Positions 8,039 through 62,562 of a DNA stretch of 64,000 bases are shown here, one piece after another; within the stretch, counting starts at the first letter, position 1; each line of letters starts with the position of its first letter. The notes under the pieces are model-generated. The model ran no database searches, was not told the origin of the DNA, and saw only the letters and a list, made by a program, of their open reading frames with translations. Source of the stretch: Cyathus striatus (Eukaryota > Basidiomycota > Agaricomycetes > Agaricales > Nidulariaceae); the NCBI GenBank assembly GCA_025738555.1, contig JAOVFP010000007.1, positions 4,960,001 through 5,024,000 on the forward strand, read 5' to 3'. The translations under genes were made by a program, and so were the position numbers.

Positions 8039-8057
8039 CATAAGTGTCAGCCATCAT

Positions 8058-8118
8058 GATCATTTTTTGCCCTGGTAAAATGATTGTGGCAATCATTTTA
8101 CCAGGGCAAAAAATGATC
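8058..8118. repeat. Perfect 29-bp stem, 3-nt loop, left subterminal hairpin
   Basis: The arms 8058-8086 and 8090-8118 are exact reverse complements around a TGG loop, containing TTGCCCTGGTAAAATGATTG. The right end of the element has the same hairpin at 11110-11170 with loop CCA. Confidence 0.95.
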
Positions 8119-8119
8119 G

Positions 8120-8595
8120 CTTAGGCGATCAAATGTGATCATTTACCATAGAATTAGCAGAATATTACTATGCTCAAATGTGATCATTTACAATAATACT
8201 AGCAGAATATTCCCATGCTCAAATGTAATCATTTACATAGGACTAGCTAATTGCTCACACTCAAATGTGATCATTTACTATAATACTAGCAGATTGTTCC
8301 CATGCTCATATCTGATCATTTACAATAGGACTACCACAGTATTCACACACTCAAATGTGATCATTTACATATTACCACCAGAATATTCTCACAATCAAAT
8401 GTGATCATTTATGATAATACTAGCAGAATATTCCCATGCTCAAATATGATCATTTATGATAATACTAGCAGAATATTCCCATGCTCAAATATGATCATTT
8501 ATGATAGGACTAGCAGATTGTTCCCACACTCAAATGTAATCATTTACTAAAATATTAGCAGAATATTCCCACACTTATAAGTGATTATAAGTGAT
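8120..8595. repeat. Tandem array, left arm, unit about 46 bp with TGATCATTTAC
   Basis: Around ten copies of a unit combining TGATCATTTAC, ACTAGCAGAATATTCCCATG and CTCAAATG. The inverted counterpart is at 10500-11100. Confidence 0.9.
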
Positions 8596-8629
8596 CATTA
8601 GGTCATGCAGGTGGCATAATAGGTTGTTC

Positions 8630-9260
8630 ATGTATGTCACACATTGTCACACTTTTTGACACGTCACATTTTGTCACACATTTAGACATGTCACACATGT
8701 CACACATTTAAACACGTCACACATTGTCACACATGTCACACATGTCATACTTTTAGACATGTCACACTTTTAAACATGTCACACTTTTTCACCACATGTC
8801 ACACTTTTTGACATGTCACATTTTGTCACACACATCACACTTTTAGATATGTCACACATTTAAACACATCACACATTGTCACACATGTCACACATGTCAC
8901 ACATTTAAACACGTCACACGTTGTCACACATGTCACACTTTTAGACACGTCACATTTTGTCACACACATCACACTTTTACATGTCACATTTTATCATGTA
9001 TATCACACTCTTACATATATTACACATTTACATATGTCACATATTCCACATTTGTCTTGTTGTTTATAGCTGTCACACTTAGCTGTCAAACTTCTCACAT
9101 TTGCTTGTATAATACTCCTGTCATGTAGTCACATAGGTTACATTTCCAAATTCATGTTATACAACATCTGTTACAACCATTATATTCATCACACATGTTA
9201 CATATCCCAACACATCACATTTATTCACATTTTGTTCACATGTCACACATCTCTCATTTG
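8630..9260. repeat. Tandem array, left arm, GTCACACATTTAGACAT-type units
   Basis: Degenerate repeats of GTCACAC with TTTTAGACAT or TTTAAACAC spacers. The inverted counterpart is at 9840-10470. Confidence 0.85.
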
Positions 9261-9839
9261 TAATACTGTACCATTTAAATCAGTTTGAAATAGGCAAAAT
9301 GTTGACATCATTTGATGCTTTCTGACATGTAACTGTCAAATTATTAAAATGGCAAATTTATCACAAGTTGCATTTTCACAGTATTATGTTAGTCAGACAT
9401 CTCATATATGTCACATTTTATGTTTCAAAATCTGATGGTAAATGTGATGAAATGATCACACAGCAGATATTTGCAATTCTGTAACAATGAAAATTGAACA
9501 GTAGTGAGCACTGTTAAGAGAGACACAAGAAATCATATAGCCCATTGGTTAGTCAAGAAAAACATCTGATTGGCTGATAGAAAGTGTGACAAAGATATAA
9601 GTAATGTGACAATAGAAGTAATAATTGAATGGAAGATATAGATATGTCAACATAACCAGACCAGATAACATGTGATGAAGATACAGAATACATATTAAGG
9701 TTAGTTAGACAAAATTAGTATCTAAGTACAGTTATGTCTACTACAGAATCTGACTGTCTTATTAAAACATAACATTGTGATTACCAGAAAGTAGTGTTGA
9801 CACAATGGAGAAAGTACCATAACAAGCAAGTGATATGAG

Positions 9840-10470
9840 AAGGAAGTGTGATATGTGTGACAAATGTGAGAATATAACAGGTGTAATATTGACATATAAG
9901 AGATGTATAACATGTGTAATGAATATAATGGTTGTAATAGATGTTGTGTAACATGAATTTGGAAATGTAACCTATGTGACTACATGACAGGAGTATTATA
10001 CAAGCAAATGTGAGAAGTTTGACAGCTAAGTGTGACAGCTATAAACAACAAGACAAATGTGGAATATGTGACATGTAAATGTGTAATATATGTAAGAGTG
10101 TGATATACATGATAAAATGTGACATATGTAAAAGTGTGATGTGTGTGACAAAATGTGACGTGTCTAAAAGTGTGACATGTGTGACAACGTGTGACGTGTT
10201 TAAATGTGTGACATGTGTGACAATGTGTGATGTGTTTAAATGTGTGACATATCTAAAAGTGTGATGTGTGTGACAAAATGTGACATGTCAAAAAGTGTGA
10301 CATGTGGTGAAAAAGTGTGACATGTTTAAAAGTGTGACATGTCTAAAAGTATGACATGTGTGACATGTGTGACAATGTGTGACGTGTTTAAATGTGTGAC
10401 ATGTGTGACATGTCTAAATGTGTGACAAAATGTGACGTGTCAAAAAGTGTGACAATGTGTGACATACATG
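9840..10470. repeat. Tandem array, right arm, GTGTGACATGTCTAAAA-type units
   Basis: Reverse-complement counterpart of the array at 8630-9260. Short open frames through it are repeat translations. Confidence 0.85.
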
Positions 10471-10499
10471 AACAACCTATTATGCCACCTGCATGACCT

Positions 10500-11100
10500 A
10501 ATGATCACTTATAATCACTTATAAGTGTGGGAATATTCTGCTAATATTTTAGTAAATGATTACATTTGAGTGTGGGAACAATCTGCTAGTCCTATCATAA
10601 ATGATCATATTTGAGCATGGGAATATTCTGCTAGTATTATCATAAATGATCACATTTGATTGTGAGAATATTCTGGTGGTAATATGTAAATGATCACATT
10701 TGAGTGTGTGAATACTGTGGTAGTCCTATTGTAAATGATCAGATATGAGCATGGGAACAATCTGCTAGTATTATAGTAAATGATCACATTTGAGTGTGAG
10801 CAATTAGCTAGTCCTATGTAAATGATCACATTTGAGCATGAGCAATTAGCTAGTTCTATGTAAATGATCACATTTGAGCATGGGAATATTCTGCTAGTAT
10901 TATAGTAAATGATCACATTTGAGCATGGGAATATTTTGCTAGTCCTATGGTAAATGATCACATTTGAGCATGAGCAATTAGCTAGTTCTATGTAAATGAT
11001 CACATTTGAGCATGGGAATATTCTGCTAGTATTATAGTAAATGATCACATTTGAGCATAGTAATATTCTGCTAGTTCTATGGTAAATGATCACATTTGAT
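10500..11100. repeat. Tandem array, right arm, GTAAATGATCACATTTGAG units
   Basis: Inverted counterpart of the array at 8120-8595 with a few more copies, so the two arms have changed in copy number since they formed. Confidence 0.9.
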
Positions 11101-11189
11101 CGCCTAAGCGATCATTTTTTGCCCTGGTAAAATGATTGCCACAATCATTTTACCAGGGCAAAAAATGATCACGATGGCTGACACCACTC

Positions 11190-11640
11190 GTCTCACAGCA
11201 CCTGCCTAGTGACGCAGGATGCAGATGGCCATCCTTACGCTTGCCTGCAGCTCCCTCATGCCAAGACAGCAGCCCCAGGTGAAGTGCAAGATGTGTTTCT
11301 GATGGCACAAGAAGGACTATGCCCACTGCTCACCCTTCGCCACCTTGCGTTAAATGTTCCAGCTGGCTCACAGTCTGCCCCATGCTCAAAATGGCAGCGA
11401 TTGGCCGCATTAATGACATCCTCACTGCTGCTGGCTGAAGAATGTCCTTTGGACACTCCTTCCAGATTGGTGGTGTGTCATTCTATCTGTCCAAGGGTGT
11501 GTCCCCAGAAATTGTATGGCTGCATGGCTGCTGGTGCTCCTTAGCATATGAGGCATACATACACACCTTCGAGTGCATTGCCTCTCGCCATCTTGCAGAC
11601 CAGATGAGGGTTGGCTGCACACAGGTGCCGTGGTGGTTAT
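11190..11640 (+). pseudogene. Tyrosine recombinase, C-terminal catalytic part
   Basis: Continuation of the gene broken at 8038. The frame reads DADGHPYACLQLPHAKTAA, then LTLRHLALNVPAG, then after a frameshift near 11440 GHSFQIGGVSFYLSKG, WLHGCWCSLAYEAYIHTFE and ASRHLAD. In active fungal relatives the first motif has HSFRIGG (the HxxR box), and the last has a GRWRS-type stretch before the nucleophile Tyr. Here Gln replaces the catalytic Arg, while Cys, Cys and His replace other Arg. Each is a single CpG transition from an Arg codon. The Tyr (EAY) remains. The enzyme would be dead. Confidence 0.75.
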
Positions 11641-21700: not shown

Positions 21701-22509
21701 CCATGTTCACTCATTTCCAGCTCCAAGCCTTGCTTCGAGCTACCGCACTCATTTTTCTGACCTTACATGCCAGCGTAATCATGGATGTTGAACAACTCCA
21801 CAATGACATCCTCACTGCGTTACCTTCCGACCCCATTGCACGCATTTACCTTGCTAACCCAGTTAACCGGTGGTCTGTTGATGACAAAGGTTTTCTGCGT
21901 CTAGACAACCGCATTTGGGTTCCTACCTCTTCCGACTTTCCCGACCTACGACTCCGCGTTCTTTCGTACAAACACGATCACATCATTTCTGGCCACTATG
22001 GCCAAAACAAAATGTTAAACTTGATCCGCCGCGAGTACACCTGGCCTGGTCTTCGTACCTTTGTAAAAGATTATTGTAAGTCTTGCACCACTTGTATGTG
22101 TAACAAACCACAATGACACCGGCCATATGGAACTCTAAAGCAATTGCCAATTCCTGAACAGCTGTGGAACTCGATCTCAATGGATTTCATTGGTACACTA
22201 CCGACCTCATCCGCTTATGAGAAAGAGTTCAATGCGGTACTTGTTGTTGTTGATCGTCTTACAAAGCAAGCAATATTCATTCCTACTACGAACAAGCTTA
22301 CCTCAGAAAAGCTCACCGAGCTTTTCGTCCTCCATGTTTTCTCTAAACATGGTATTCCATCTCATGTTACATCGGATCGAGGAAAGGAGTTCATCTCCCA
22401 CTTTTTCTGTTCTTTAGGTACCATTCTCAATATGAATCTTCATTTCACTTCTGGTTATCATCCAGAGGGCGACGGTCAAACTGAACGCACTAATCAGACA
22501 CTGGAACAG
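21700..22509 (+). pseudogene. Gypsy integrase, N-terminal half (split)
   Basis: The HHCC zinc-binding domain is visible (HDHIISGHYGQNK...CKSCTTCMC, 21970-22100). TGA at 22114-22116 interrupts NKPQ-HRPYG where Arg is expected. The catalytic core follows: SMDFIGTLP (first Asp, near 22178), TSDRGKEFIS (second Asp, near 22370) and GYHPEGDGQTERTNQTLEQ with the catalytic Glu near 22485. The giant element begins right after the target duplication GGAACAG at 22503-22509. Confidence 0.8.
22503..22509 (+). repeat. 7-bp target duplication, left copy (GGAACAG)
   Basis: Repeated at 62563-62569. Joining the integrase halves at one copy restores the frame through EQYIRIYCNYQQ. Confidence 0.85.
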
Positions 22510-22609
22510 GAGGGGTGTCAGCCAAATTTATCATTTAACAGCAGTGTTATATGATATGGGATATCATATAAGGTCTGAGTTTTATGAGTGAGGCATATAC
22601 TATATGTAT

Positions 22610-23640
22610 ATACAGGCTATTCATAAGTACTCATTACTTTATGCTTATTATTATTGTGATAGTATTATGGGTACTCATAAGTACTCATTACTTTATGTTT
22701 TCTATTATTATTGTAATGGTACTGTGGGTAATCATAAGTACTCATTACTTTGTATTTCCTATTGTTATTGTAATGGTATTGTGGGTACTCATAAATACTC
22801 ATTACTTTATGCTTTCTATTATTATTATAATGGTATTATGAGTACTCATAAGCACTCATTACTTTATATTTGCATTTTTATTGTAATGGTACTGTGGGTA
22901 ATCATAAGTACTCATTACTTTGTATTTCCTATTGTTATTGTAATGGTATTGTGGGTACTCATAAATACTCATTACTTTATGCTTTCTATTATTATTATAA
23001 TGGTATTATGAGTACTCATAAGCACTCATTACTTTATATTTCATATTGTTATTGTAATGGTATTGTGGGTACTCATAAATACTCATTACTTTATGCTTTC
23101 TATTATTATTGTAATGGTATTATGGGTACTCATAAGTACTCATTACTTTATGCTTGCTATTATTATTGTAATGGTATTAGGAGTACTCATAAGCACTCAT
23201 TACTTCATATTTCCTATTGTTATTGTAATGGTATTGTGGGTACTCATAAATACTCATTACTTTATATTTCCTATTGTTATTGTAATAGTATTAAGAGTAC
23301 TCATAAGTGCTCATTACTTCATATTTCCTATTGTTATTGTAATGGTATTATGAGTACTCATAAGCACTCATTACTTTATATTTCCTATTTCTATTGTAAT
23401 AGTATTAACAATACTCATAAGTACTCATTACTTTACATTTCCTATTGTTATTGTAATGGTATTGTGGGTACTCATAAGTACTCATTACTTTCTTCTTCCT
23501 ATAATTATAATAATGCTATTATGCTTACTCATAGGTGCTCATTAATTTATATTTCCTGTCATATTGTAATGTTATGTGTACTCATAAGTACTCATTACAT
23601 TTTTGTTTTCTATTATAATTTATTATTGTAATGCTATTAT
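22610..23640. repeat. Left tandem array of the giant element, unit about 58 bp
   Basis: About 17 copies of a unit with ACTCATAAGTACTCATTACTT and TATTATTATTGTAATGG. The long open frames over it are repeat translations in three frames. The same unit occurs in reverse complement at 45045-46530. Confidence 0.95.
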
Positions 23641-23709
23641 GTGTACTTATAAAACTCATTTATCTAATATTGATTCATCATTTACAAAACTATATATTAT
23701 ACAATTTAT

Positions 23710-26700: not shown

Positions 26701-27543
26701 TGAAACATTATGAATCCCAGTATTATCCACAATAACTAAATTTGTGGGAGTGTCAACTGGATCTGAGCACAATGCTCCCCCATGTCCAAGATGCACATGA
26801 AGTCCAAGATTCTTCAGAGTTTCCCTTTCAAAATAGAACTCATTCCAGTACTTTGCAATGCCAAATATTAATATGCAGAGGCAATTGTGCATGCACTGCT
26901 ATAAGACATTTTTTGCACTGGAGTAAACCACCATTAAAGCAATCTTTACACTTGTAACAACCAATTTCATTCTTGCAAGCTGAACATTTTTCCTCATCTG
27001 AATAGTCTCCTTTTCCATCATGGTGAAGAAGTTCATTAAGGAATTCATCCTGATATTGTAATCACTCTTTCATTTTTGCCTAGATAGTTAATCAGATGTG
27101 TACATTATAAAATACAATAGACTAACTGATGATGTTTGGTCACGTTGCCTCTTAGATTTCAATGGTGGATCATTCTGAACTGCCTGTTCATTGGCAATTA
27201 ATTCAATACTACTTTCACAGAGTTCAACTTCCTGAGAAACCAAGTCATTGCAGGTAATTATATCATTTTGTTTGCTATGGTCAATGTCACGATGCCACTG
27301 TGACTCCTTCACCACTTTCTGCCTTCCTTCCTTGTCAATAATTTTAAGTGATGTAATTCGTGATGTATTATGCAAGCTAGAACTTTGAGGCTGAGATCCT
27401 AACTGTTGGAATTTTTCCTTATCTTTTTCACTTGTAGCCACTTGAGTTCTCACTGCAGGCCGAGACTGGACTGAGTGCTTAGACTGTTTCTGAGTAGCCA
27501 CTGGTGCTTCTGCTGTAGGAGATACATCACGTTTTTGAGGCAT
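23710..27543 (-). pseudogene. KDZ transposase with CxC2 cysteine cluster
   Basis: Starts at 27543 (MPQKRDVSPTAEAP) with several short introns. Exon 2 has a zinc ribbon (CSACKNEIGCYKCKDCF...CKKC, 27000-26905). The CxC2 domain follows (LGLHVHLGHGGALC, VDNTGIHNV, YAQLMHAGWFPASF, LTLQSKTNLYDWYHTLC). The KDZ core is at 25123-25850: MITYDIGCQWSKNMRK, WHINGHGSSCRSNFALAYF, GAGRTCGEEVETTW and TREMGPAARHEVLNDQ. The C-terminus is coiled-coil-like, ending in a highly acidic tail (EDMEDNDMEDQDMED). Damage: TGA at 27062-27064, 26512-26514, 26357-26359 and 24613-24615 (minus strand), plus one frameshift near 26850. KDZ proteins are DDE-type transposases expanded in mushrooms. As the only KDZ gene in the giant element, it probably moved this family. 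Confidence 0.8.
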
Positions 27544-42975: not shown

Positions 42976-42999
42976 TCATTACTATCCTCAAATCATGTC

Positions 43000-45040: not shown

Positions 45041-45044
45041 AATT

Positions 45045-46530: not shown

Positions 46531-48394
46531 AGTAGCATAGGGTCTAACATGGGTGGACCCAGGTCTTACGCGGGTGGCACCCGCAGGTGACTAGCAAATT
46601 CGGGTTGGGTGCATGCATACCTGCGGGTACCTGCACTCACCCGTTCCCTGAACCCTGTTTAGACCCTACAGCCATCGCACCGCGCAACAATCTTTCTCAT
46701 TTTGCTTCTCCTGATCCTAAATCTACACCTATTACACCAATTCTTTTTGAATAGTAAGGAATAGCATGCTGTAAAAATGTTCCATGAATTAGCTATTCAA
46801 AATACTCACACTCCTATGGACTATATGCAAAACAAAATGGGGGGTTTGGAGAATTTAGTGAATTTCAAAAATTCTGTGGCTTGTATCACCGTAAAAAATC
46901 AGGAATAATCACTCTTAAAGTATACAGTTATTGAAGACAAGCAATAATTTATATTTTCTATTACTTTTATTGACCTGTGCGTGTCATATCTTTATAGAAT
47001 TACAGATTGTGTGATATTCACCATCTTGCATGACATCAAAACTTTATTTATAAACTGATCCAGGACTTCGGCACTACTAATTTTGAATGGCTTTGCAATG
47101 AATAATTGACTGTCATGCCATGTATGCTGATCAAAATCCATTCCCATCCACCATTTTGCATATTTGACCAGCTTCCCTGCATCAAGTATATTAAATATTT
47201 TTCAGTAACATTCATAAAGTACTATGCTATCTCCCCATACAGATTTTGTAAAAATTAGAAGAGGGAGAAAAGAGTTATGAAGACATCATGTTTTCTGTCA
47301 CATGTGACGCATGACGGTTGTATACTGTACCTAATTATGTAGTGTGCTCGCTAATTAATTTGAAGTCAATTACTTCATAATTGTATTCCCCATCAAATTT
47401 ATTAATTAAATACCAAAATACCATTCAAAGTTCATTCTAATACATCATACAATGAAACATCTGCATAGGTATAACAAGGGGGCACATGGATCGGAATTTC
47501 CCACTGGGGGTGGGGAGGGTAGGTAGGGCCGAAGGCCCAAAACAAAATTTATGGAACCCTCTATACAGTACTGTACCATTACGACTGAATGTTCATGATT
47601 TTTTAGCATGACACTGAAGTTTAGTTCATTGTTCAGTTCATACCTAGATTTGGTGCATGACATTAGCCAAATTTGTTCAAAGATATAAGGGCATGCTGAA
47701 GTACTGGGACAATGGGACAATGCATTATAAGTAGCCCAAGAAGAACAATGATGTGTTGTCTCATAATAACTTATTTAGAAAGTCTTGATGGTGGTCCAAG
47801 CAATGGAATTAACATTTAAACACCATAGCATTCAGTAAAGTAGCTCCACTGAATTCACATTTGCAATATCTAAGGTGAGATACATTTCTAATGCATATTT
47901 CATCAGGAAAAACCTCAGCAGCTATATTAGCAAATAATCTTGAATTTTAGCTCAGATAAGTAGAAAATAGTTAAAATAAGGACAATAAGGACAATAAGGT
48001 AAAATAGTAAGGCCCCCTCCTTATTTCGAAAAAATAAGTACATTTTAGTACAAATAAGCTGGTATGGGTAGATAGTAGATATAACTTGGTGAAATATAGC
48101 TGCTTATTTCATCGATTCAAGTATGTATAAGGAACAGATATAGCAGAAAAAGATGTAATTAGGTGTAAGTATTGATACATTAATATGGTGTAGAGCGAAA
48201 TAAGGGAGCATTTGTCATAATGTCAGTTGTTGCCTTGCAGTGATATCACTTCATTTACTAATGAGAGTGCAATAGAAAGGGCAATAAACAATTCATTAGT
48301 GGTTTGATAGTAAAATAAGTAGCACTAATCAAGTATGTACACAACTAATTAAGTACGGACAATGCTATATGCAAGAGATTGGTATCATTATTAA

Positions 48395-51196
48395 TTAATC
48401 CTCAGTCATATATTTACTTAAGTCCATGACTGGGTTAAGATGCTTTCTGCCCCTCTTTGGAACAGTAACAGGCTGATTACTATGAAGGGTATATATAAGT
48501 ATATGTTGCATACATATATAAGATACATGACAAGGGAAACTCACCTTACGCATCGATATAGCTTGTGCATAATAGCATGAAATGCTTTGGGACATTGTTC
48601 TTGTACAGCTTCAAGGCTCTCCATGTGGTATTGGTAGGTGGGTGCAAAAAGGTTCCCATCAAAGCTCTTTGCCAGCCTTATACCATCCTTCCATTCCATC
48701 AGGGCTGCATAAACCTGAAGAATGATCTGAATTAAACTCGGTAACAGAAAGAGTGAAGTGGTTCTCTTACAGCTGTTGCTCCAAGAGCAACCATAGCAAT
48801 TGGGAGCTCAGGTTCTTCAATCTGATCCATTTCGATGTTGTATTGTGTTACAGCTTCATGTCCAAGGGATGACGAGTGAGCAAAGTAGCTCGTCTTCAAT
48901 GTTTCGGATATGGCTATATTCAAATAGGGCGTGTCCAGTTGTGGAACCCAGGTCTATATATGTACATGACATAGTGTGAGAGTGATATACAAATTAAATG
49001 AATAGCAGCTTACCGAAGTTCCTGACCACTCTCCTGGAAAGATATACACACCGTGATTGTCGAAAAGAGTTGCAACGCATGTCTCACACTTTTTTCCAAG
49101 CCCCAATTCATAGACAGCAATATGGGCAGCAGCATTAGTCTTTGATGGACCTCGAGTGGCTGCGAAGCGGTCCAGAACCTAAGTAAAAGGTATCAAAAGA
49201 AACTATACCACAATGGAAAATAAGGACCCACTAAATTGCCAAGCTTTATACAGAAGTCAGGATCGAATTCCAGTCGTTCCTTGATATCATCCATTTTATC
49301 AGACTTGTAGAGCTCTGCTGCGGCAAATAGGACCTCCAGTCGAAAGGCATCGCACTGTTGGAACTCTGGCCAGCTGTGGTCCTTCAAGAGCTTCATGCTC
49401 TCGGATTGAATCACCTTCGTGACGAGAAACCGAATCTGCATATATTGATCTTTCAAATGAAGGCCCTTCCCGTTTGGTGTAGTAACGAGTCTTGTATGTG
49501 AGGGCCAATCATCGTGAGGGGCGCGTGACTTTTCTTTAGTTGGCTTGCAATCTACAATAATTGGTTGCTAGATAAGAGGAGAAGATAAGTATGTGAATAT
49601 CGGAACATAGAGTACAGCTTCACCTCTTTCTGAAATGCAATTTCACGGCGAAGCTAACAGTGAGCAGTGTCAACAGTGAGCAGGTGCAGCATAACGAAAT
49701 CCACTTACAGACTTCTTTGATGCAGCTTTCTTCAACTCGTGTTGACGTTTATGTTGCTTCGATTTAGGCTGCAGGCTCGCCCCATCTGATGCATAGTCTG
49801 CTTTGTACTCAGAGGTTTGAGGGAGCGAGCCACCCACAGACGATGACTGGCTGTGTTGGGTGGATACCCACACTTCAATATCGTCTTTGGGTGTAGAAAA
49901 TAGGCTGGTAGCTTCAGGGAATGTTCCAGTCTTCAGCATTGGTTCCCTAACAACAGGTTCCTAGTGCGATAGATAAGCTATAACAATAATGCTGTGGTCC
50001 ATGAGAAATAGACAGCTTACATCTAGCATTATATCAAGTTCAGCCTCATCGTCATCATCATCACCCTCCTCCCCGCTCTCCTCTTTCGAAGATTTCGATT
50101 TGGTATCTTCGGTATGTCCATGACTTTGCTTGTGCTCACTTGAATCTTCAGTGTCAGCTTCAGCCTCAGCCTCGTGGGACACAGCAGCTGTGGGTTTGGT
50201 GGGGCATTTAACTGAGGCGGCGGTTTTCCTAGGGGCTACGTGGGCGGTAAGTTGCTTTCGTAATTTTGCGTAAGTTGACGTACCTTGCACCTGGCCCAAA
50301 GATTTCGATTTGGTATCTTCGGTATGTCTATGACTTTGCTCATGCTCACTTAAATCTTCGGTGTCAGCTTCAGCTTCAGCCTCAGCCTCGTGGGACACAG
50401 CAGCTGAGGGTTTGGTGGGGCGTTTAACTGGGGTGGCGGTTTTCCTAGGGGCTACGTGGGCGGTAAGTTGCTTTCGTAATTCTGTGTAAGTTAACGTACC
50501 TTGCACCTGGCTCTGGGTCTGAGGTATGGACTCAAAGGACTTCATTGAAGCCTGGAAAGTGACAGCGTTGTCCGATTCCGCATCACTTTCTATAATTAAA
50601 GCCTTTGATCTTTGTTCTAAATGAGTTACCTGTCATCAGCATTTCTCATCATCAAATGAAGCGTCAAAGATCAACAAACCGTGTTTCTTCCCTCCCCTCT
50701 TCTTCTCTCCCTCCACGAGCACCTTGTTATTTTCTGAATTCTTCTTTGCGCGTTTCTTCTTTGCTGGTACGTCGGGATTTTGCTGAATGTTAAACTGTTC
50801 TGTCTCTGAAGCTATTATTCTTTAGTGCGTTTCTTGGTTTGATAATTGATTGCAACTTACTATCTGTGCTATGACGCTTGCGCTTTCCACCCTTCTTTGC
50901 TCGTGGTGCCTCACCACCTTTCAGCGGCAGCCAAGCTAGATCCCAGGTATAAGTAACTGTTGACATTTGTGTTATTTGTTGAGCTTACCTGGATTTAGCA
51001 GCGCATTCTTCTTTGCCTGTCGAGTTCCTGTTGGAGAATTTCAGGTAAGTACTGGGAACGTTCGAAGTTGAATGAAGTACTGACCACTCGTCGCCACGTC
51101 ATCAATCATCTGCCGCTCCTCAATCTGTTGCATAATCTTATTTTTCCTGCGAGTTTCATTTGACTTCATGGTACGTTCACTTGTTGACGCAGGCAT
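48395..51196 (-). CDS. DUF6532-type protein next to Plavaka transposase
   Basis: Starts at 51196 (MPASTSERTMKSNETRRKNK) and ends at 48395, with about ten short introns. The N-terminus is basic, followed by an internal duplication of about 75 residues (TYTELRKQLTAHVAPRKTAT and TYAKLRKQLTAHVAPRKTAA, 50290-50500 and 50050-50290) and an acidic run. The conserved region is at 48560-49460: IRFLVTKVIQSESMKLLKDH, RLEVLFAAAELYKSD, PELPIAMVALGATAVYAALMEW, YQYHMESLEAV. This is the same family as the gene at 1-2122. I found no in-frame stop in the conserved exons. Role unknown; its divergent placement beside a transposase suggests an accessory function in transposition or regulation. Confidence 0.6.
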
Positions 51197-51418
51197 TGTG
51201 GGTTGCTATTCTCGATGGAGGAGAGTTGAGTGGGAGGGATTGGTGGGTAGGAATTGGTGGTAGAGACTAGGAAATGAGGATGTGGCATAAGGAGTAATGT
51301 AAGTTTTAACTTGTCATTCGACTTTCCTGTACCGAACTGTGCGCTAACTCTTGGTCCTATCCTCAGACATTTACTTATTCAATTTATACATCATTTCATC
51401 TTTGTATCTAATTCATCT
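51197..51418. promoter_or_regulatory. Shared intergenic region of the divergent DUF6532-Plavaka pair
   Basis: About 220 bp separates the DUF6532 start (51196) from the preferred Plavaka start (51419). It must hold both promoters. No specific site can be called from sequence alone. Confidence 0.4.
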
Positions 51419-54400
51419 ATGGCGACTCGAGAATACACATGTGCTGCTTGTGAAACACCTAACCTAACGTCCTTGGGCCTTGCTTCACATATTCGACAAA
51501 GTCAAGACCCCTTCTGTCAACAATACTATGAATTAGAGGCTAATCAACAAGCATCGATTCAGCAAGTTGAACACGAGTCTTCAAAGGACTCGGGAGTGGG
51601 AGTGACTCCTTTCTTGGGTGATGCATTTGGATCAGCCACCGACTATGGCAATGATAACTTTGGCCAGGACGATGGAGATGAGATAATAGGAGCTCATCCC
51701 TGCATTGATGGAGATGATGAGGAGAGTATGGATGATGAGGATTGTGACGAGGAGGCTCAGGCTGCTGCCGCCGAAATGGAATACAATTGGGAGCCGGCTC
51801 ATCAGGATCAACATGAAGACCACGACATGGATGAAGATGACCTAGACGATGATTCAGCCTTACACAATGTGACTCAATCTCAGATTTGACAAGAAATTGT
51901 AGCACACCTCGCCGCCGAAGAACGTGCTCACACTCAGCATCCTTTAATTACACGGTTTTCGGACATATATCCTACCTCCAAACCTGGTGCAGTGCTACAC
52001 CAATCAAATCACTTGGATGAGGTCTATCACCACAACATCAGTGGTCTTATGAACCCTTGGGCACCGTTCACCTCAAGACTTGATTGGGAAGTCGCAAAAT
52101 GGGCAAAATGCCATGGTCCAAGTTCCACCGCATTCTCAGAACTTCTGGCTATCGATGGGGTGAGCAGACTCAGTGCTCTGTATGTTTGTGTCTTTTATTG
52201 CGTTATTGATGTTTTACCTATAGCTCCAGGAGGCACTTAACTTATCATACAAGAACACTGCACAGTTAAACAAGATTATTGATACAAAACTCCCTGGAGG
52301 GCGTCCCAGATTTCAACGCCAGGAGGTTCTTGTCGATGGCCAAGCGTATGAGCTATATTCCAGGAATATTATAGAGTGTGTTCGTGCGCTATGGGGGGAT
52401 CCTGAGTTCACTCCTCACCTCATGTTCGAGCCTCAGCGACAATTTGTGGATGAGGACCGTAAATCTCGGCAGTACCATGATATGCATACTGCAAAATGGT
52501 GGTGGTCAATGCAGGTACGTCCTTATTCTTTCAGTGTTGTATCTCTCTAATATTTAACCTGAAGTGAAAGGTGGAGGCGCAGTCAGGCCAAAAGGATTGT
52601 ACTATTGTACCTATCCTTGTATTGTCAGACAAGACTCAACTTACAACATTCCGAAACAAGACAGCCTACCCTGTGTATATGACGATTGGCAACCTCCCCA
52701 AGCATATCCAGTGGAAGACTTCATGAAATGGGCAGGTTTTGCTAGGTTATCTTCCGACATCGAAGCTTGATCATATTAAGAACAAGTCTTCCAAACGGCG
52801 AACCCTTGTGAACCTCTTCCACGCGTGTATGGACTTTATCTTGCAGCCACTTCAAACAGCTGGACACGAGGGGATTGAACTCATCAGCGGTGATGGCGCT
52901 GTCCGCTGGTGTTACCCCATTCTTGCAGCGTACATTGGTGATTATCCAGAACAAGTTATGGTGACTATCATCAAAACTGGGTTATGTCTTTCTTGCCCTA
53001 CTCCACGCGATGGCATTGGCGACTCACCCATACATTTACCTCCTCGTAATGATACTCCTATTCGCACTGCACTGGCTGCAGTCCCAGAAGGTTCAACCAC
53101 ATTCAACAAAGCTTGTATGGCAGCTGGAATAAAACCGGTTCCATATCCATTTTGGAGAAACCTCCCTTATGTCAACATATATCGGTCCATCACGCCTGAC
53201 ATTCTACATCAACTCTTCCAAGGAATTATAAAGCATGTCATTGGTTGGGTTCGTTCAGCTGTAGGCGATGCCGAAATTGATGCAAGATGTCGTTGTCTCC
53301 CTCCGAGCCACCATATCCGCTTATTCATGAAAGGAATTTGTAATCTTGCTCGTGTCACTGGGACAGAGCATGATCAGATTTCTCGATTTCTATTAGCTCT
53401 TGTCATTGACATTTGGCTCCCTAACTGCTCCACTATCTCCAACCAACGCTTAGTTCGTGCCATGCGTGCTATTCTCGATTTTGTCCAGCTAGCTAGGTAT
53501 CCAGTACATTCAGATGAGACGCTTGGCCTTCTTGACGCTGCTCTCAAGAGTTTCCATGATAACAAGAGCATCTTCGTTGATCTGGGAATCCGAAATCAGT
53601 TCAATATCATCAAGTTGCACTATGCTCAACATTACCGATTTTTTATAGAACTCTATGGTACAACCAACAACACTGACACACAGTACACTGAGCGGCTTCA
53701 TATCGATCTTGCTAAGAATGCCTACAGTGCCACAAATAGCAAGGATGAATTTTGCCAAATGACATTGTGGCTGGAACGCAAGGAGCGGATTTTCCAGCAT
53801 GACAAGTTTCTCCACCGTCATTTCTTCAGTGTACCAACTCTAACTGCTCACAAGCCTTCACCTGTGCCTGAACTAGTTCCTTTGCGAACATTGAGGATGT
53901 CAATACACCCCTCATGTCGAGCTGTCACCTTCACAACTCTACAAGATGAATATGGTGCACTAGATTTTGAAGCCGCCCTAGCTCGAATGGTAGTTCAGGC
54001 TCAGCATCCTGAAATTACGGACCCCCGTGTGATTCACCGTGAAAGTGATAGGCTTCCGATGTTATGTCAATCGGTATCAGTCTATCATCGTCTCAAGTAT
54101 GTTAGCCAGGATCCCTTTGCCTCGGATGCTGCAGCCCAAAGTGTGGTTGATTCAATACATGCCCAACCATCATGCATTGGAAAGTATAATATAACTATTC
54201 CTGGCTGCTTCGATACAGCTATTGTGGATTTCGAAGACAAAAAGTCTAATGGAGTAGACGGTATGTACTTAATTATAATTGCTGGGTATTACCAACTAAA
54301 GCTTTACTAGGACATGCTGTCACTCAAATTTGATGTATCTTCTCACTGCCATCTTGTGCATCTGCCGAATGGTTCAAGGGTGATCCTCCATCAAAACATT

Positions 54401-54669
54401 TTGCCTATGTGGAGTGGTTTACTCCTTTCTCAGCTGCTGCGATCAACCCTGCCTCCCTTCTCTACAAGGTCACGTTTCTTCGAACAGCAGGAACCCAGCG
54501 GTTGTCAAGTGTCATTCCGGTCAATCTAATTAAAGCAAGTGCACATTTGTTTCCTTCTTTTGGTCCAAAAGTGCCAGAGAGTTGGATTTCGAGCACTGTA
54601 CTTGATGACTGCAAGACTTTTTACATCAACCCTTTTAATAATAGATTCCAATACTCTACAATTGTATAA
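51419..54669 (+). pseudogene. Plavaka-family transposase
   Basis: I prefer the ATG at 51419 because it directly precedes a C2H2-type finger (YTCAACETPNLTSLGLASHIR). An acidic linker follows, then PGAVLHQSNHLDEVYHHN. After introns come the Plavaka core motifs: VPILVLSDKTQLTTF...AYPVYMTIGNLPKHI (52610-52700), LISGDGAVRWCYPILAAYIGDYPEQ (52880-52955), DILHQLFQGIIKHVIGWV (53200-53250) and TDTQYTERLHIDLAKNAYSATN (53670-53740). The C-terminal exon begins after an intron at about 54262-54310. TGA codons at 51887-51889, 52724-52726 and 54331-54333 stand where Arg is expected; no frameshift was seen. Plavaka proteins are DDE transposases of basidiomycete elements. Confidence 0.85.
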
Positions 54670-55113
54670 TTGAATAATATAAATAACCATTGCCATAATA
54701 GTGTCACTTAAATATCAATGTTGTGAAACAAGGTACATATAAGATCAAGAAAGTTAACATAAGTACAGTGCCCTCAGTCACTTCTCATCACCTGACTTGG
54801 CAGGAGTACATCATTGACACTCTAACTCGAACTACATTTTGACAGCACATTTTTTCGACTTGGAAACACATTTTGTCACATTAGATAGACTAGTTCTACT
54901 ACTACAGTGCTTTCCAAGTCAATTGGACAATTTTTTTTTTCGATCCGCTGAAAAAATGAAACAGACCCTATTACATAATAGGGTTATACCATATACGGAA
55001 ATTATTACATAATATTTATTGGCGAGCGATGATATTATGATTCCTCCAGGCACTTTGAGGGATGTGACAATGAGATGTTTACTCTTTCACAGCATAAGCA
55101 ACTTGTTGGACAT

Positions 55114-58100
55114 TCAGACCCATTCTGTAAATGATTTAGAAAAGCTGAAGGGCAATAAATTATAATATAACACATACTTGTAAGCACTCATGTATCTCCA
55201 ACAGTGACGAAAAAATTTGTGGATGTGTGTTGAAGAAACTGCATCCAAACATTTAGGAACTAACTCCTGGGCCTTTTTAAATGTTCCATCAGTGAGGCCA
55301 CGAAATTCTATAGATTTATGAGACATAATGTTAACTGAGTATTATAATATCAATATCATCAGGAAAAACCCCAACAGCTAAATTAGTGAAAATTCTTAAA
55401 TTTAAGTCCGAGTTAAGTGGAAAATAGTCAAAATAAGGACTATAAGAACTCTAAGGTAAAATAGTAAGGTCCCCTCCTTATTACAAATAAATAAGGAGAT
55501 ATTTGTATGAATAAGCTTGTATAGGTAGATAATAGGTATAACTTCATTAAATTTAGTCACTTATGTTGCCACAATTTAGCATAATTTCTCAATAGAAGTA
55601 TGGCAAAGGATCTTTTAAAGCAAAATAAGAAGGAATTTATTGTAGCATATAGATTGCCATACATTACTAATGTAATATTTATACAACATAGTCTCATTAT
55701 AACAATAAACCAAAGACATAACATATGCACTTCATAACATCCAGCAGTACCTCACTTAACAACAACTATAGCACTCCTTCATGACTCACTCAAGCCAGTA
55801 ACAGTGCCAGGAGACTAGTTCAGGGACCAGAGAGAGCAAGCATGGACAAGTGGTAAAGCGAGACAAACAAAGTGAGCCATGGAATTTTGAGACAAGAAAA
55901 GCAGTGGGGGATCAAGGACAGAGCCAAGCAAACATAGGGAGTTAGGTCCAGGGTATTACATTGACTGAACCAGGGAGCAGCAGCCAGAGAGGACAGTAAA
56001 GAGCGAGTACAATAATGTTGGTTACAACATAAGCATGTTCAAACTATAATACTAATTTACATGATAAGCACATAAATAACAGGTAAGGCAACCAAAGACA
56101 TACCAGACACATGAAGACTCCATTAACACGAGCAAGAATCCAGCAGGTAACAGCGCAAGGCCAGCCATACAACGAGTAGATACTCAGTCCCGGAGGTTTG
56201 CGTGACAGAGTAGAAATGGAGCAGGTGCCCAAGGTACATGGGTCAGAGCATTTGCGGTAGAAGGCCAAGATCTTGGTGGACGAATGGGGAACAAGTGAGG
56301 GATGCGATGGGAGGGGAAGGGAAGGAAAGAGCGGCAGAAGGAGGTCAAAATCATACGTTACTTGTGTACGTGTCAAGTTGAACATGCACGTGATACACAA
56401 TCAATGACAAATAAGGAGAAGCGGTCACGCACTGGCACTAACTTAGTAACTTTCTCACTTGCCATCAACTTGCTATTTGAAGCTAACTTAAACCCCCAGA
56501 TACGTCTTCTCCTCTTCAGTTTTGTGTTAGTACATAACTTGTAAGTAATTTCACTTTTATATAGTGTTTTATTGTTCACTTCAAATTTACTTACAGATTA
56601 GTTGTTACCATTAACCACAAGTAAGTAAACTTATGTAACACTATGACTCAGAGATAAAGATCATTTATTATCTGTATCCCTTGCCGTGACAGTAGTCTCT
56701 ACTATAAATTATACTGGATAGTATTATATATGTATTTTCATTAGTCAATGTAATATATATAACACATACATGACTTGTCATAATTCAAACTGGAAATAAA
56801 CTTGATGCAGTGTTTAAAATGATATTCTCTCTTAAAGGACTATCATAAATTTATCTTGCACTTTAGCTAGTATTTTATGCTAAAACTTGCTTAAAATCCT
56901 AATTTTCATTAAGGGAAATTCCTGTAATGCTTATCAACACTTATCATGTTCATATTAGGCCATATAAGTACAATTAAGTTCGAATTACTTGATATTAGTA
57001 ACATTTGAGCATGGGTAAATCTTAGTATTACTAATTTCACTAATTTAGCCGATGGGGATTTTCCTGATGATGAACCTACTGTATTTTGCGAGACCCCACA
57101 CCATCTCAATTGGATTGAGCTCACAATGAAATTTCGGAAGAAAGAGGCATTTATGGCCAGATCCTTCAATTACTAGTTGAAGAAGTGGCTTTTCTGCTTT
57201 AAAATCTGGTTGTAGAGCAAGTACCCGCTGCATGCAACAATCAGATGCACGAGTTTGATCATGTTCATCCATATCAGAAACTCCTCGAGCACCACTGGTT
57301 GAATTATCAGAACCTTCTATTTCATCTTGCTTCGATCGCGCCTCCTTTAGTGCAGCCTCACGAGCAGCCTGAGATAGCCTGCACATTTTGCAGATACCTA
57401 CCAAGCTAGATCCATGTTTCTGTTCAAGTTCAGCAAGCAATCCACACTCTCGCAATACCTGCTCCATTCCTTTGGTTTACCAGCCAAGGAATTTCCATCC
57501 TTATCAACACCTATATAGTCCAATGAAAATACCATGGACTGTACTTCACTAGTTGAAGGGTTAATAGTGTCATGGATAATAGGCTGTTGACCCCCAGGCC
57601 ATCGATTCATCTTGTGGGCTAGCAATGCATCTGCTGCAAAAGCCTCATGTGCTGATGAGCAGTCAAATATAAAGACAGCAACACCTTCAGGAAACTTTGC
57701 ATTAGAAATTTCAATCGCATCTTTTGTCTGATAAAATAGATTGTTAATAAATGTACATTTCTCAGCTGTAATGAGATTACCTGAGCAATTAATTGACCCA
57801 TATCCCACCATGGATCATGATTTGCACCCGGAAAAATAATCCTATGAGCATCAAAACTAGGAATGCGGTATGAAGTGAATGGTGCTGGTGGGGGTGGTGG
57901 GATCCATTCATTTTCATGCTCTCGCATAGTTCTAGCTGCAGTAGCAACAGGAGTTCTTGTATTTTTTGGTTTTCTTTTTACTGCCCTTGCTGATGTATTT
58001 GCTGGAGTTGTTTCCAATTCAGGTTCTGGTGGAGGCTTTGGATGCTCAGGCAGCAACATTTGTGCTGCGATCTCCTCTTCACTGAGAGCGAGTCGGCCGC

Positions 58101-60176
58101 AAGCTTCAATTATAAACTCAGAGACATGTACAATTCATCCACGTTCTTTTTTTCGAAGTGGTTGTTGACCATCGCATGCCCAAACATAGTTGTCAAGATC
58201 ATTGGCATGAAAGCAAGCTTCATCATGGAATATAGGATAATGGATCTTTTGACCATCACTTAGATTTGGCTTTATCTCGACAAGGTCATCACCGTCATAT
58301 GCATTGGCAAACCTGAATGGATTGATGTTAATCTATGAAAAATCTACAATAAATCATACTTACGGAAGGACTTGAGTGTGAACATAATTCAAAAACTCGT
58401 CACGAGAGATAATAACATCAGGCCGCTCATGTCCATCAATGTATACACCCTTTTTAACACACGACATTCGATATCCAAGCTGTTTAAGCCATGCTATAGA
58501 AGTTGTTTCACCAATTGTGTCTTCTATACCAAGACTTGGGAAAAGGAACTCATTCACATAGCGTCGTAGTTTAGGTGCATTTAACTATTACAATAATTAG
58601 TGTTTGAATTGAATATAGAAAGTGTACACATACTCTGCCAATAAATCCTCCATTGTCAACTGGTATTTCTCCCTTCAACCAATTTTGAATTGCAGAGTTA
58701 ACTTCTGATCGATCTAAATAGGACACATGCTGTGCACCTTTACCCTGTCTATTTTCGGGAAGTTGTCCAGTTTTTAGGACATGTAAAGCCATTGAACGTA
58801 ATGAATGTTGAAAGTACGTTCCTCGGTTGCAACATAATGCAATTGATTCACTGGCATTAGTCGCAGGCTGGATTTTAGCAAGCTGCTTCTTAAGAGAATG
58901 CCGTGTCCTCCATGGTGCACTTTTTATCTGAGTCTTCAGGTTTGCACACTCAATCGTAAATTTGAGTCGCAGATCATTGTATTGTGAAATAGCCTCCAAG
59001 TCCAATAGCTTTTGCGCTGCATTGTTATCAGTAAGAACAGTCTTCTTACTTCAATATTGGCTCTTCAGCCTCTCAACATTTCGGGCTAATCAATCATGTA
59101 AACGCATAAATTCTGCATCAGACAGTTCTTTTTTTTCTGAGCTATCTTTTTCGTCGTTGGGTGAGCAGCTAGACTTGGAGCTACTGTCATTTTCATCACT
59201 CGCATGTGTTACGATGCCACTGATATCAAGCTGTTAAAGTGCTAAAGTGTCAGAACTGAAATTTACGAAATATAATGTTTCCTACTACTAAGGCTTCGCT
59301 TGGAACATGTAAATTCCCTTCTTCACAGTTCAGCGATATGGAATGAGAGTCAGATCAACTGGAATCTTCAACACTTGTATATGTTACAGTGCTACTGGTG
59401 TCGAGCTAGTAGTCTTTAATAAAATATACTTATCAGATATGTAAATTTTGTACCTCTACATTTTCATATGAAGTGTAGACAGACTTATAATCACAGAGGG
59501 GAGGAGGTGAAGTATTCCTATCTAAATCTTCATCCTGTGTAGTTACAAAGTTCAGTAACAAACCGAGAAAAGGAAAGAATATTTTTAACATGACTCACGG
59601 TACTGGAGGCATCATTTACTGACTCTTCTTCCTCCTGGCGTGCTTCTTGTATTTTTTCGAGCTTAAACTTCGATGGTCTGGCCTAAGCATACATGTATTT
59701 CATGTTAAAATTGTAACAGTCAGATGTAATACAATAATTACCTGGAATATCGATGCAATTGATGGCTGCATTTGAATAGCTCGAGCCTTCTTTGTCTTGC
59801 CACTGGTATTTCTTCAGTTAGTTGTGCGAGCAATTTTGGCTGTGCGCTCCGGAACAATGTCAGCGATCTCGTGTCTTTCCTTCCGCTTCGTCATCTGAAC
59901 CAAAAATGTCAATTAATATTCTGCAAATAGACTTGATCTCATGCTTACCATGAGCTGTTTTTTCTCATCTGCAGAATTACCATGAGGTCGAGAAGTCAGA
60001 AGCTCGACATCTGAATCTTCTTCTGACAGTGCTTCTGTGACAGTTGGCATGTATGTGGTATCACATACAAGATCTGGATCATTATGTTCTTTTGAAATGC
60101 TGCCAATCTCTCCACGTTTAGCTGCTTCTCGTCGAAGGGCAGCATTTTGTCTCGCACTCTGTTTCTTCCTAGGCAT
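55114..60176 (-). pseudogene. Tc1/mariner-like DDE transposase, spliced, with an element in one intron
   Basis: Starts at 60176 (MPRKKQSARQNAALRRE). Visible parts in order: an acidic segment, a helical DNA-binding part (LRLKFTIECANLKTQIKSAP, 58970), SIAWLKQLGYRMSCVKKGVYIDGHERPDV (58400-58520), the first Asp in FHDEACFHANDLDNYVWACDG (58170-58230), VAVFIFDCSSAHEAFAADAL (57650) and LFLPKFHCELNPIEMVWGLAKY (57085-57150) with the catalytic Glu. The final exon, RGLTDGTFKKAQEL...FFRHCWRYMSAY, lies across the insertion at 55170-55310. Damage: TGA at 59094-59096, 59051-59053 and 58135-58137 (minus strand) and one frameshift near 57478. Confidence 0.75.
55357..57069. mobile_element. 1.7 kb CATCAGG mini-element inserted in a transposase intron
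   Basis: CATCAGGAAAAACCCCAACAG at the left is matched by the reverse complement of the right end, CATCAGGAAAATCCCCATCG; the match continues through GCTAAATTAGTGAAA. It has no transposase. Its ends and subterminal region match the 12.7 kb element around it, so it looks like an internally deleted relative. The site lies between the GTAGGT donor and CTATAG acceptor of the mariner transposase intron. Confidence 0.75.
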
Positions 60177-60639
60177 GGTGCAGGCTTCAACAATGAAATC
60201 CCTGGTAACCAGCAATTTTTTCATATGAATACATCAGTTTGTAATCCAAATTGTATTTGTAATGTTCCTGTGCTCTCGGAGGAGCTGTCAAAATTATATT
60301 GCCTGGTCCAAGAAGTGAAATGCCGTGGGAAAAAATAGGTTGACATCGTAAATCGACATCTTTTGATGGGTTTCCTCCCCAAAAAAATATTTAAAAAATC
60401 CGAAAAAAAATCTTTCCCCTTAAACTTCAAGTGCTGGAAATGTGACCGAGAGCACTGTAGAGCTGCTACTTATATTGTATAAAAGTTCCTAATCATGAGC
60501 GAATAGATCCTAATCATGGATAAATTGTGACCAGTAAGTACAAATAAGTAACTTTAAACAAAAATAAGAGAGGTGTAGTCCTTTTAATTACTAATTATAC
60601 CTTTTTTTGCTTTTTTAGCAGGTGGGGTTTTTCCTGATG

Positions 60640-62150
60640 CTTCACAACATTACTCATTTTCTAAATTAGTTATACACAAATTCATCATGGAATCTCTCAG
60701 TATGCAATTGAAGATTAACACACTGGTGCCAAATGATCTATTTCCATCAGATTCTGGATTTCAGTAAGCAATGCCAAACTGTGAACAGGTGCAACTCTGA
60801 CTTCGAGGCATGGTGAGAGAAAAAAATGTAAAAATACAATGTATTCATCTGAATCTTGGGAAGAGCATTAGGGTACTTATTTCACATAATTTACATGTAC
60901 TGTCACCTTGAACTGCTCGAGAAATTTTTGAAAAAGTAGGCCTATTTTATTTCAGCTGAACCTTTGTTCAAACTAGTTTGTGATGTGTCACAAATCAAAA
61001 AATTGTTCAGTTCACGCAGGTACCATTATGCATCACTGAACAATCAGTCATAATAGTACAGTAGTCTTATATCAGGTTTTGTAGTGCATTCAGTGAATTA
61101 TAATTGGCTTATATTCCATTTAATGTCAATTCCTGTGCTCAGCAGCATCACTTGTGGTCATTTGGGCATTATAATTGATTTGTCAGAGCTAAGATGACAA
61201 ATTATTATCTTATCTATGATTACCTCATCAATGACTCTTGAAGCCAACTTAGTTTTCCATTCTAAGCTACAGCTAGAAAGCTAGTTGCTAACTATTAATG
61301 ATGGCAGCCTGCTCTAGCACCTCCAGCACCACCAAGAATCCTTGACTCTGAGGGCTTTTCTATCTGCCCTGATTGTGGAATACAACTCCATTGTGCAAAC
61401 CTTGGCCTAGCCAATACTCTTAAAGACTATGACAAGACAAATGCATCCCAGCAGGAAGACAAACCAGAGACATTACTGGTTCATAATAAAGTCCCAACAG
61501 AAGTGGTTGATGGACTAGCTAGCACAGAGAATCAGAGATTGGCAGAGGGGATAAGAACAGTGGTGAGGGTGCAAACAAAGGTGGAATTCCTGACACTGTA
61601 ACACATGAACCCACTATTCAAGGCTCTGTGGATCTAGCCTCTAGAGCAATGTGCATCAAGATTTGTCACAAATCTGGACACAAGAAACACACATTTTAAA
61701 AGGCTCTTGACAAACTTCCAAGTGATAATACAGTATATTATATAGCCCAGGTATCTGCACAGAATACTGTAGTACAGAACTACAATGTGAATGCTGAGCA
61801 AGGGCACAATATCACCTCTATCATGGTACTGTGTGGATGGACTTGCAATGTGTGTAAACTGAGCAAGGAAGGAGACAGAGGTGTTAAGCGGGTCTGAAAG
61901 TAGCCGGATCTTTGAGTATACTAAAAATAGACCTCTTTCCGCATTTGGCAATAATTGGCTTATGTAAGGTAGGTAGGTAGAGCAACAAGGCAGTTTCACC
62001 CCAGGTCTTTTTTTCCAATCTGTGTGCCCCCTTGAGGTATAAGTACACTAATATACACTGCAATATATAGAAACCATCAGTCCACTGATACAACACGAAA
62101 GTTTTGCATAGGTAGGAGAACAGGTTGGCTGAGTTTAAAATTCATATTTT
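60640..62150. other. Mostly gene-free, with a small Cys-containing fragment
   Basis: A short frame near 61320-61560 reads ILDSEGFSICPDCGIQLHCA, reminiscent of the CPDCGALHW motif in the Helitron-type replicase, but no neighbouring homology supports a gene. The rest is AT-rich and featureless. Confidence 0.3.
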
Positions 62151-62562
62151 TCACCCGCGTATCCCCCTTCACCTGCAGGTGACACCCGTTCACCACCCGG
62201 GTGGATGCTAACCCGCACGGGTGACGTAATTTCGGGTTAGCACCCGGAATATGCTAACCCGTGTTAGTCCCTATAGTAGCATTACAATAATAATAGGAAG
62301 CAATAATAATAGGAAGTATAATTAATGAGTACTTATGAGTACACATAGTAGCATTACAATAATAATAGGAAGCATAAAGTAATGAGTACTTATGAGTACA
62401 CATAATACAATTGTAATAATAGTAGAAGCATAAAGTAATGAGTACTTATGAATAGCCTGTATATACATATAGTATATGCCTCACTCATAAAACTCAGACC
62501 TTATATGATATCCCATATCATATAAGGCCTATGATAAATGAGAAATTTGGCTGACACTTATG

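Follow-up and report, generated by a model that had tools for sequence, protein, structure and literature searches.

The genome of Cyathus striatus contains DNA transposons with exact 7-bp target duplications, probably moved by a KDZ transposase that would pair one C-type with one G-type end and cut its target with a 7-base stagger. Three elements with such ends lie wholly or in part in a 64,000-nt stretch of contig JAOVFP010000007.1 (C7:4960001-5024000; the window, to which positions without a contig prefix refer), where an initial annotation, made from the sequence alone, had recognised three elements with a common core end. The elements carry recognisable ends in mixed pairs, flanked by exact 7-bp duplications; an empty site was found for one of them, end sequences are linked to KDZ clades, and the two arms of an element are alike from the core inward.

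The genome searched comprised 107,453,461 bases in 24 contigs, and its KDZ, CxC2, Plavaka and Helitron domains, together with the appearance of its split genes, fit a mushroom-type basidiomycete. The core is GTGTCAGCC; an end is termed C-type when it reads CATRA-GTGTCAGCC and G-type when it reads GAGKG-GTGTCAGCC. The core occurs 1241 times in this 107-Mb genome compared with 249 times for a reversed-pattern control, the GAGKG-core 261 times (control 1) and the CATRA-core 400 times (control 0). Five copies are present in the window, at 8044, 11176 (minus strand), 22515, 62549 (minus strand) and 63400, exactly where the three elements had been placed, and shuffles lead one to expect 0.39. A chance origin of the core was rejected on the basis of the window shuffles and the genome counts against controls. 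When the letters of the core were looked for in published papers, the matches listed were all in unrelated papers and mostly looked like primers. At C1:200354 (L002) and C1:252998 (L003) the CATAA-GTGTCAGCC is followed by mutually similar sequence that does not resemble an end, seemingly another repeat family containing the 14-mer; both were excluded from the end-cluster counts.

As first described, elements 1 and 2 both combine a CATAA with a GAGKG end, and each is flanked by an exact duplication of 7 bp (GTCTCAC and GGAACAG, respectively); the boundary of the duplication lies 5 nt outside the core. For a wider view, a sample was picked by hand on C1: the first 100 core places there include 21 neighbouring convergent pairs spaced by less than 8 kb, and all but the pair at 6408901 were taken, giving 20. 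Pentamers of the form CA[TC][AGT]A were scored as C-type and the remainder as G-type, which includes the variants CACTA, AAGGG, GAGGC and GAAGT; L018 and L024, where the outer pentamer cannot be recognised at one end or both and where no duplication is present, were excluded from the counts of mixed and same-type pairs. An exact 7-bp duplication starting exactly 5 nt outside the core was present in 14 of the 16 mixed pairs, none was seen in the same-type pairs L032 and L036, and in 462 cross-paired controls, each setting the left flank of one element against the right flank of another, there were 0 matches. When all 40 pairs from the C1 sample, a second batch and elements 1 and 2 were combined, the duplication was exact in 21 of 32 mixed pairs versus 0 of 8 same-type pairs (Fisher p 0.001). 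The second batch was selected deliberately for KDZ linkage, size or same-type ends, so that its success rate does not stand for the whole genome; end L055 enters two pairs, and L045/L046 resembles a partial copy of L043/L044. The initial annotation had named copies without a 7-bp duplication as a refuting result, and on this point the outcome was mostly in its favour: most mixed pairs have the duplication, the same-type ones never.

With the boundary fixed, the match was exactly 7 nt long in 21 of 21 exact cases, and any other duplication length was rejected on these grounds. With the boundary left free, L021, L028, L031, L034 and L035 of the C1 sample showed overlaps of 8-10 nt that reach into the pentamers. 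A fixed target sequence was also rejected, as the 21 sites showed no strong preference. The site occupied by element 2 could be followed with a 150-nt query in which both flanks were joined with a single copy of the duplication. It was found uninterrupted in 20 retrotransposon copies (91-99% identity over 148-150 nt), and the copy in the window matched the query as 1-80 and 74-150, the 7-nt overlap being the duplication.

Adjacency and KDZ linkage were counted on C1, C2 and the first 3.86 Mb of C3, the range over which the lists of both end types are complete. Of 35 adjacent convergent canonical ends less than 8 kb apart, 30 were mixed, compared with 48% expected from the end frequencies (p 3.5e-6). 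Eighteen mixed elements were examined in full, sixteen of them from the C1 sample and the others being elements 1 and 2. Without exception their inverted arms start with the core, at base 6, and the alignment of one arm to the other extends over 133-1415 bp with 64-99% identity, so that the outer pentamer is the one systematic difference between the two ends of an element; in the two same-type elements examined the arms begin at base 1. The two ends of an element have the same hairpin variant (GGA in L019, GGT in L037/L038, GGC in element 3), a sign of probable arm-to-arm conversion. Read most simply, conversion removes differences while something, most likely the transposase, would demand unlike pentamers; arms that match inward of unlike pentamers suggest a transposase requiring one end of each type.

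The features of the three elements are as follows.

8032..8038, unstranded: left 7-bp copy of the target duplication GTCTCAC of element 1
8039..11189, unstranded: element 1, probably non-autonomous, a fold-back element whose arms measure about 1.2 kb
8039..8052, plus strand: C-type end of element 1, CATAA and core GTGTCAGCC
8058..8118, plus strand: left perfect hairpin of element 1, 29-bp arms and 3-nt loop TGG (DNA-fold z -12.1)
8129..8575, plus strand: left subterminal tandem array of element 1, 45-bp unit, rich in TGATCA
10528..11099, minus strand: right subterminal tandem array of element 1, 45-bp unit
11110..11172, minus strand: right hairpin of element 1, loop TGG (z -11.9)
11176..11189, minus strand: G-type end of element 1, GAGTG and core
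11190..11196, unstranded: right 7-bp copy of GTCTCAC
22503..22509, unstranded: left 7-bp copy of the target duplication GGAACAG of element 2, within a Ty3-looking retrotransposon
22510..62562, unstranded: element 2, 40,053 bp, KDZ-bearing, with nested inserts
22510..22523, plus strand: G-type end of element 2, GAGGG and core
22531..22587, plus strand: left terminal dyad of element 2, 27-nt arms and 3-nt loop GGG, outer stem decayed and inner stem intact
22621..23620, plus strand: left subterminal array of element 2, 57-bp unit, TGAGTR spelling, TGATCA absent
23713..27540, minus strand: KDZ transposase gene region of element 2, limits estimated from open frames
25126-25800 and 25799-26173, minus strand: KDZ domain pieces, directly inside the left array
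26515-26898, minus strand: CxC2 zinc cluster (122.5 bits)
31226..35491, plus strand: Helitron-type open reading frames (ORFs; Helitron_like_N, PIF1 helicase) inside element 2, likely a nested insert
45050..46538, minus strand: right subterminal array of element 2, inner part of the split array
46539..62272, unstranded: nested insert of 15.7 kb with AGGG..CCCT ends and the 10-bp flanking repeat ATAGTAGCAT on both sides
52727-54310: Plavaka transposase, inside the 15.7-kb nested insert
62285..62451, minus strand: right subterminal array of element 2, terminal part
62485..62541, minus strand: right terminal dyad of element 2, loop GGG
62549..62562, minus strand: C-type end of element 2, CATAA and core
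62563..62569, unstranded: right 7-bp copy of GGAACAG
63388..63394, unstranded: left flank of element 3, GCATTTC; the right flank, outside the window, is ACATTTC (6/7 letters match)
63395..64000, plus strand: element 3, with C-type end CATGA and core, hairpin and 69-bp array, running on to C7:5025442

The largest element carries a KDZ transposase, as had been proposed: domain PF18758 scored 130.4 bits at 25126-25800 (cut-off 26.6), together with the CxC2 cluster. When 20 ORFs of element 2 and its inserts were scanned, the transposase-type matches above cut-off were KDZ/CxC2, Helitron and Plavaka; neither a hAT match, for which no family search of the genome was made, nor a P-superfamily match was found in these 20 ORFs. 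The idea that KDZ is merely part of a nested insert was rejected, given that its gene sits to the left of the insert and Plavaka inside it. Element 1 showed no KDZ among the matches listed, its ORFs not having been scanned for other families. TET/JBP (PF12851), the gene that accompanies the transposase in TET+ families of the Kyakuja lineage of KDZ elements, gave 0 matches in the genome and likewise 0 in the control genomes.

An inward-facing canonical end lies 2.2-3.8 kb downstream of 7 of 19 related KDZ loci, whereas this is true of 2.2% of random positions (p 1.1e-7). The control loci were those among the matches listed in the range covered, with downstream ends only being counted, and here an end was found at 0 of 4 other KDZ loci and 0 of 9 Plavaka loci; two of the nine Plavaka loci among the matches listed have an end within 40 kb upstream. 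A consistent association of the ends with a different transposase, the other refuting result named in the initial annotation, was not seen for Plavaka, which has none downstream among the matches listed, other transposases not having been tested for linkage. On C7, C8 and C10 there are KDZ copies of 92-97% protein identity, followed at 2.5-4.3 kb downstream by ends of the element 2 type. Among the matches listed, all four members of element 2's KDZ clade with 92-100% identity have such an end within 5 kb downstream, and neither of the two relatives of 82-89% does. A copy 97% identical to that of element 2 lies inside C7:4354239-4380580 (26 kb), which like C2:2326621 (37 kb), C3:1980708 (17 kb) and C8:2527486 (19 kb) is among the KDZ-bearing elements with an exact duplication; of the ten KDZ pairs with both ends, nine retrieved for the purpose and element 2 itself, five have an exact duplication, element 2 included.

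End sequence follows the transposase. KDZ identity correlated with end-sequence identity over 15 loci (Mantel r 0.65, p 1e-4) and with one locus per clade (n=9; r 0.40, p 0.008). At four other loci of element 2's KDZ clade the ends contain TGATCA 0 times and TGAGTR 4-5 times, at four loci of a second clade TGATCA 4-6 times and TGAGTR 0 times, and in two further clades (five loci) the spelling is mixed. The pentamer class beside the 3' side of the KDZ gene varies between clades (10 G-like and 5 C-like of 15), hence it is not bound to one side of the gene. As a separate observation, the KDZ elements at C3:1980708-1998003 and C3:2024640-2041943 have identical KDZ stretches in inverted relative orientation. 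Their 7-base flanks agree beside the C-type end and differ beside the G-type end, as might result from an inverted duplication or from a recombination event that had one of its breakpoints where the element ends.

In elements 1 and 2 the 3-nt-loop hairpins were confirmed, as were the inverted arrays. A hairpin inside each end, as the initial annotation had it, does not extend to the family at large: among 70 distinct ends in 17 clusters, only 5 clusters (39 ends) showed a clear palindrome. Its centre lies 34-36 nt inward of the core, its arms are about 27 nt long, and the best-fitting loop is 3 nt in four of these clusters. In the other 12 clusters (31 ends) the palindrome was not clear of shuffles, or the cluster consisted of a single partly deleted end; the L017/L020/L023/L032-type cluster (7 ends) has none. 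DNA-fold z values for the first 95 nt inside the core were about -12 in element 1 and -10 in L019/L025, and mostly between about -2 and -7 elsewhere, but about 0 in the L017/L020/L023/L032 type; most flanks gave values near 0. Stem letters co-vary in the element 2 family: over 11 hand-chosen ends, 85.9% of cells were paired compared with 29-52% when the stem was slid, and 8 pairs were altered on both sides compared with 1-3. In L030 (C1:2271936-2277082) and L036 (C1:5884494-5890190) the left loop is the reverse complement of the right one (CCC/GGG and GAA/TTC), as if one palindrome had been flipped. Ends missing one palindrome half were seen at C8:2527486/2546975 and C12:1723737, the C8 element retaining its exact 7-bp duplication.

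TGA/TCA sites at fixed positions were more constant than the palindrome. Among the 17 clusters, TCA was present at positions 6-10 in 17 and TGA at 27-30 in 15 (null means 1.9 and 1.6), TCA at 39-43 in 11 and TGA at 59-66 in 11 (null means 2.0 and 3.2). The palindrome reads naturally as four TGA/TCA-type sites, two per strand. The arrays have varied periods, for example 45, 57, 69, 70 and 102 bp, and despite their unrelated look a short motif, TGATCA or TGAGTR, is common to them: in each of the 20 elements tested, TGAKYR was about 3-10-fold enriched in both arms over their first 700 bp. Five members of the element 2 family contain TGATCA 0 times and TGAGTR 20-41 times; the other fifteen elements contain TGATCA 10-84 times, counted on both strands as the motif is palindromic. 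In a count of all 6-mers in 8 families, TGATCA and its two shifts came out on top in 6. The constant TCA and TGA sites and the shared TGAKYR contradict the earlier impression that hairpin and array sequences differ completely between members.

According to the model that we favour, the KDZ transposase would cut at the outer pentamer, the target being cut with a 7-nt stagger, and would bind the core together with TGA/TCA sites in fixed register. The terminal palindrome would then be a four-site platform and the tandem arrays extra sites of the same motif. Arm-to-arm conversion would keep the inner ends alike while the need for two different pentamers keeps the outer ends apart, and selection on the sites, together with arm-to-arm copying, would maintain the palindromes. 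Short elements such as element 1, which their end sequences tie to the KDZ-bearing ones, would be non-autonomous, mobilised in trans by those KDZ proteins whose motif spelling corresponds to their own. A stricter version, to which we give slightly less than even chances, is that the KDZ transposase joins only a C-type to a G-type pentamer, a two-end rule akin to the 12/23 rule of RAG/Transib; arm copying would concentrate the difference in the five outer letters, and palindrome and array sequences could be swapped freely between families as long as the TGA/TCA register fits the transposase.

Several observations weigh against this model. No exact duplication was present in 11 of the 32 mixed pairs; two of them match in 6 of 7 letters (one is element 3) and nine do not match. 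The same-type pairs are few (8, one of their ends shared with a mixed pair) and several combine different subfamilies, hence they may be wrong pairings or recombinants and not failed transposition. Among the ten two-ended KDZ pairs, one matches in 6 of 7 letters and four show no match. The supposition that KDZ drives the elements is upheld to the extent that KDZ is the likely mobiliser, but at 12 of the 19 related loci the 6 kb downstream contain no canonical end. Stops separate the pieces of the element 2 KDZ gene, from introns or decay, and because of them this copy may be inactive. The correlations of KDZ with end motifs can be explained by shared descent alone. Finally, the windows for the site register were set post hoc on ends already inspected, and TGAKYR was first picked by eye.

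Cross-subfamily pairs are also what one would expect if these were ordinary Kyakuja elements with asymmetric ends, the pentamers being drifted left and right sequences under no pairing rule and the same-type pairs artefacts of pairing neighbours. Asymmetric ends are frequent among transposons. The 7-bp duplication, moreover, is already a Kyakuja trait in the part of the literature available (PMC12730594). We nonetheless consider this explanation unlikely: the asymmetry ends exactly at the core with up to 1.4 kb inside alike in 18 of 18 elements, the two pentamer classes recur over clusters whose inner sequences are strongly diverged, and the class on the KDZ 3' side switches between clades. 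It is improbable, too, that the palindrome is recognised as a folded structure (a cruciform or single-strand hairpin) and not through double-strand sites. The strong fold scores of some families (z to -12), the stem co-variation in the hand-chosen ends and the inverted loops of L030 and L036, as if a hairpin had flipped, fit such recognition, but arm-to-arm copying at palindromes can produce co-variation without selection. Furthermore, 12 of 17 clusters do without a clear palindrome, the palindrome-free 7-end cluster retains sites at 28 and 60 and has exact duplications in L017, L020 and L023, and the C8 element has its duplication despite the loss of half a palindrome at one end.

That another transposase, for instance of the hAT group, mobilises the elements, with KDZ genes as passengers in a few, appears very unlikely. 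The available text on hAT7 families in rust fungi does report 7-bp duplications (PMC12730594), and the KDZ loci without a near end would suit it. On the other hand, KDZ lies 2.2-3.8 kb from an end in the seven linked cases, end sequence follows the KDZ clade, the scan of 20 ORFs of element 2 and its inserts, no hAT search of the genome having been made, brought up no transposase-type match over cut-off besides KDZ/CxC2, Helitron and Plavaka, and Plavaka lacks the downstream link.

Element 2 interrupts a retrotransposon (18970-22502 and 62570-63351) of Ty3 type by its look, with a chromodomain-like tail read by eye; the break falls within the integrase-like region. The right array of element 2 is itself split by the 15.7-kb Plavaka-bearing insert, whose ends match neither of the Plavaka termini given in the available text, TGT..ACA or CATCA..TGATG (PMC12730594). 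Element 3 extends from 63395 to C7:5025442 (2,048 bp), its far end beyond the window being GAGGG.

KDZ elements rank with the largest transposons of the cut-and-paste kind and abound in some mushrooms, yet their ends and mechanism are little described in the literature accessible to us. In the present genome ends can be studied by the hundred, with a clean signature of 7 bp and with same-type pairs as an internal control, and transposases and the ends that match them form a natural series. If true, a mixed-end rule would be a simple means to suppress one-ended and same-end events while long arms homogenise, an idea that can be tested. No published account of terminal palindromes or mixed ends in KDZ elements was found among titles and the beginnings of abstracts, most subscription journals being outside this coverage, and the accessible text on the systems compared below describes no mixed outer pentamers, palindrome register or common array motif.

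Among these, the Drosophila elements Galileo and Foldback have tandem repeats inside their long inverted repeats and make 7-bp duplications, which are missing in chimeric copies; extra transposase sites within the repeats have been proposed (PMC3573991). Their transposase belongs to the P superfamily, unlike the KDZ enzyme here, and the accessible text describes no mixed outer pentamer; the resemblance is one of similar working, not of relationship. Zisupton and Dileera have a related transposase domain, but 8-bp duplications as against exactly 7 here, according to the portion available (PMC12730594). KDZ elements can also reach about 30 kb, as do the giant ones of Ectocarpus, which contain extra genes and nested inserts, and one of Chlamydomonas cited in the same report, whose accessible part describes no comparable end architecture (PMC12477816). 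KDZ1-KDZ3 of Cryptococcus share the KDZ transposase with a CxC zinc cluster, are of the terminal inverted repeat type and are active in a basidiomycete; they differ in their inverted repeats of 139-241 bp and duplications of 8 bp (KDZ1) or 4-8 bp (KDZ2, KDZ3), and neither mixed ends nor a palindrome is described in the text available (PMC12810828). In Marasmius oreades KDZ elements are abundant and their terminal inverted repeat motif has, as the authors report, been characterised; as far as the available text goes, it may overlap with the ends described here (PMC8290104).

The closest comparison is with Kyakuja, a KDZ lineage with 7-bp target duplications (Kojima 2025, PMC12730594, as far as accessible). 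The duplication length is therefore not new, contrary to the suggestion of the initial annotation that 7 bp would be distinctive. Kyakuja likewise has a KDZ transposase and occurs in Agaricomycotina, and its published termini are 5'-CA..TG-3'; here the C-type end gives CA/TG, while the other end reads GAG../..CTC. In the accessible text Kyakuja is without terminal inverted repeats; in the present elements the outermost 5 nt form no inverted repeat either, but arms of 133-1415 bp (alignment length) follow from base 6. The frequent terminal palindromes and subterminal arrays further set them apart from its description there (PMC12730594). Element 2 and its like are, by their predicted domain content, members of the KDZ superfamily and Kyakuja-like in duplication length.

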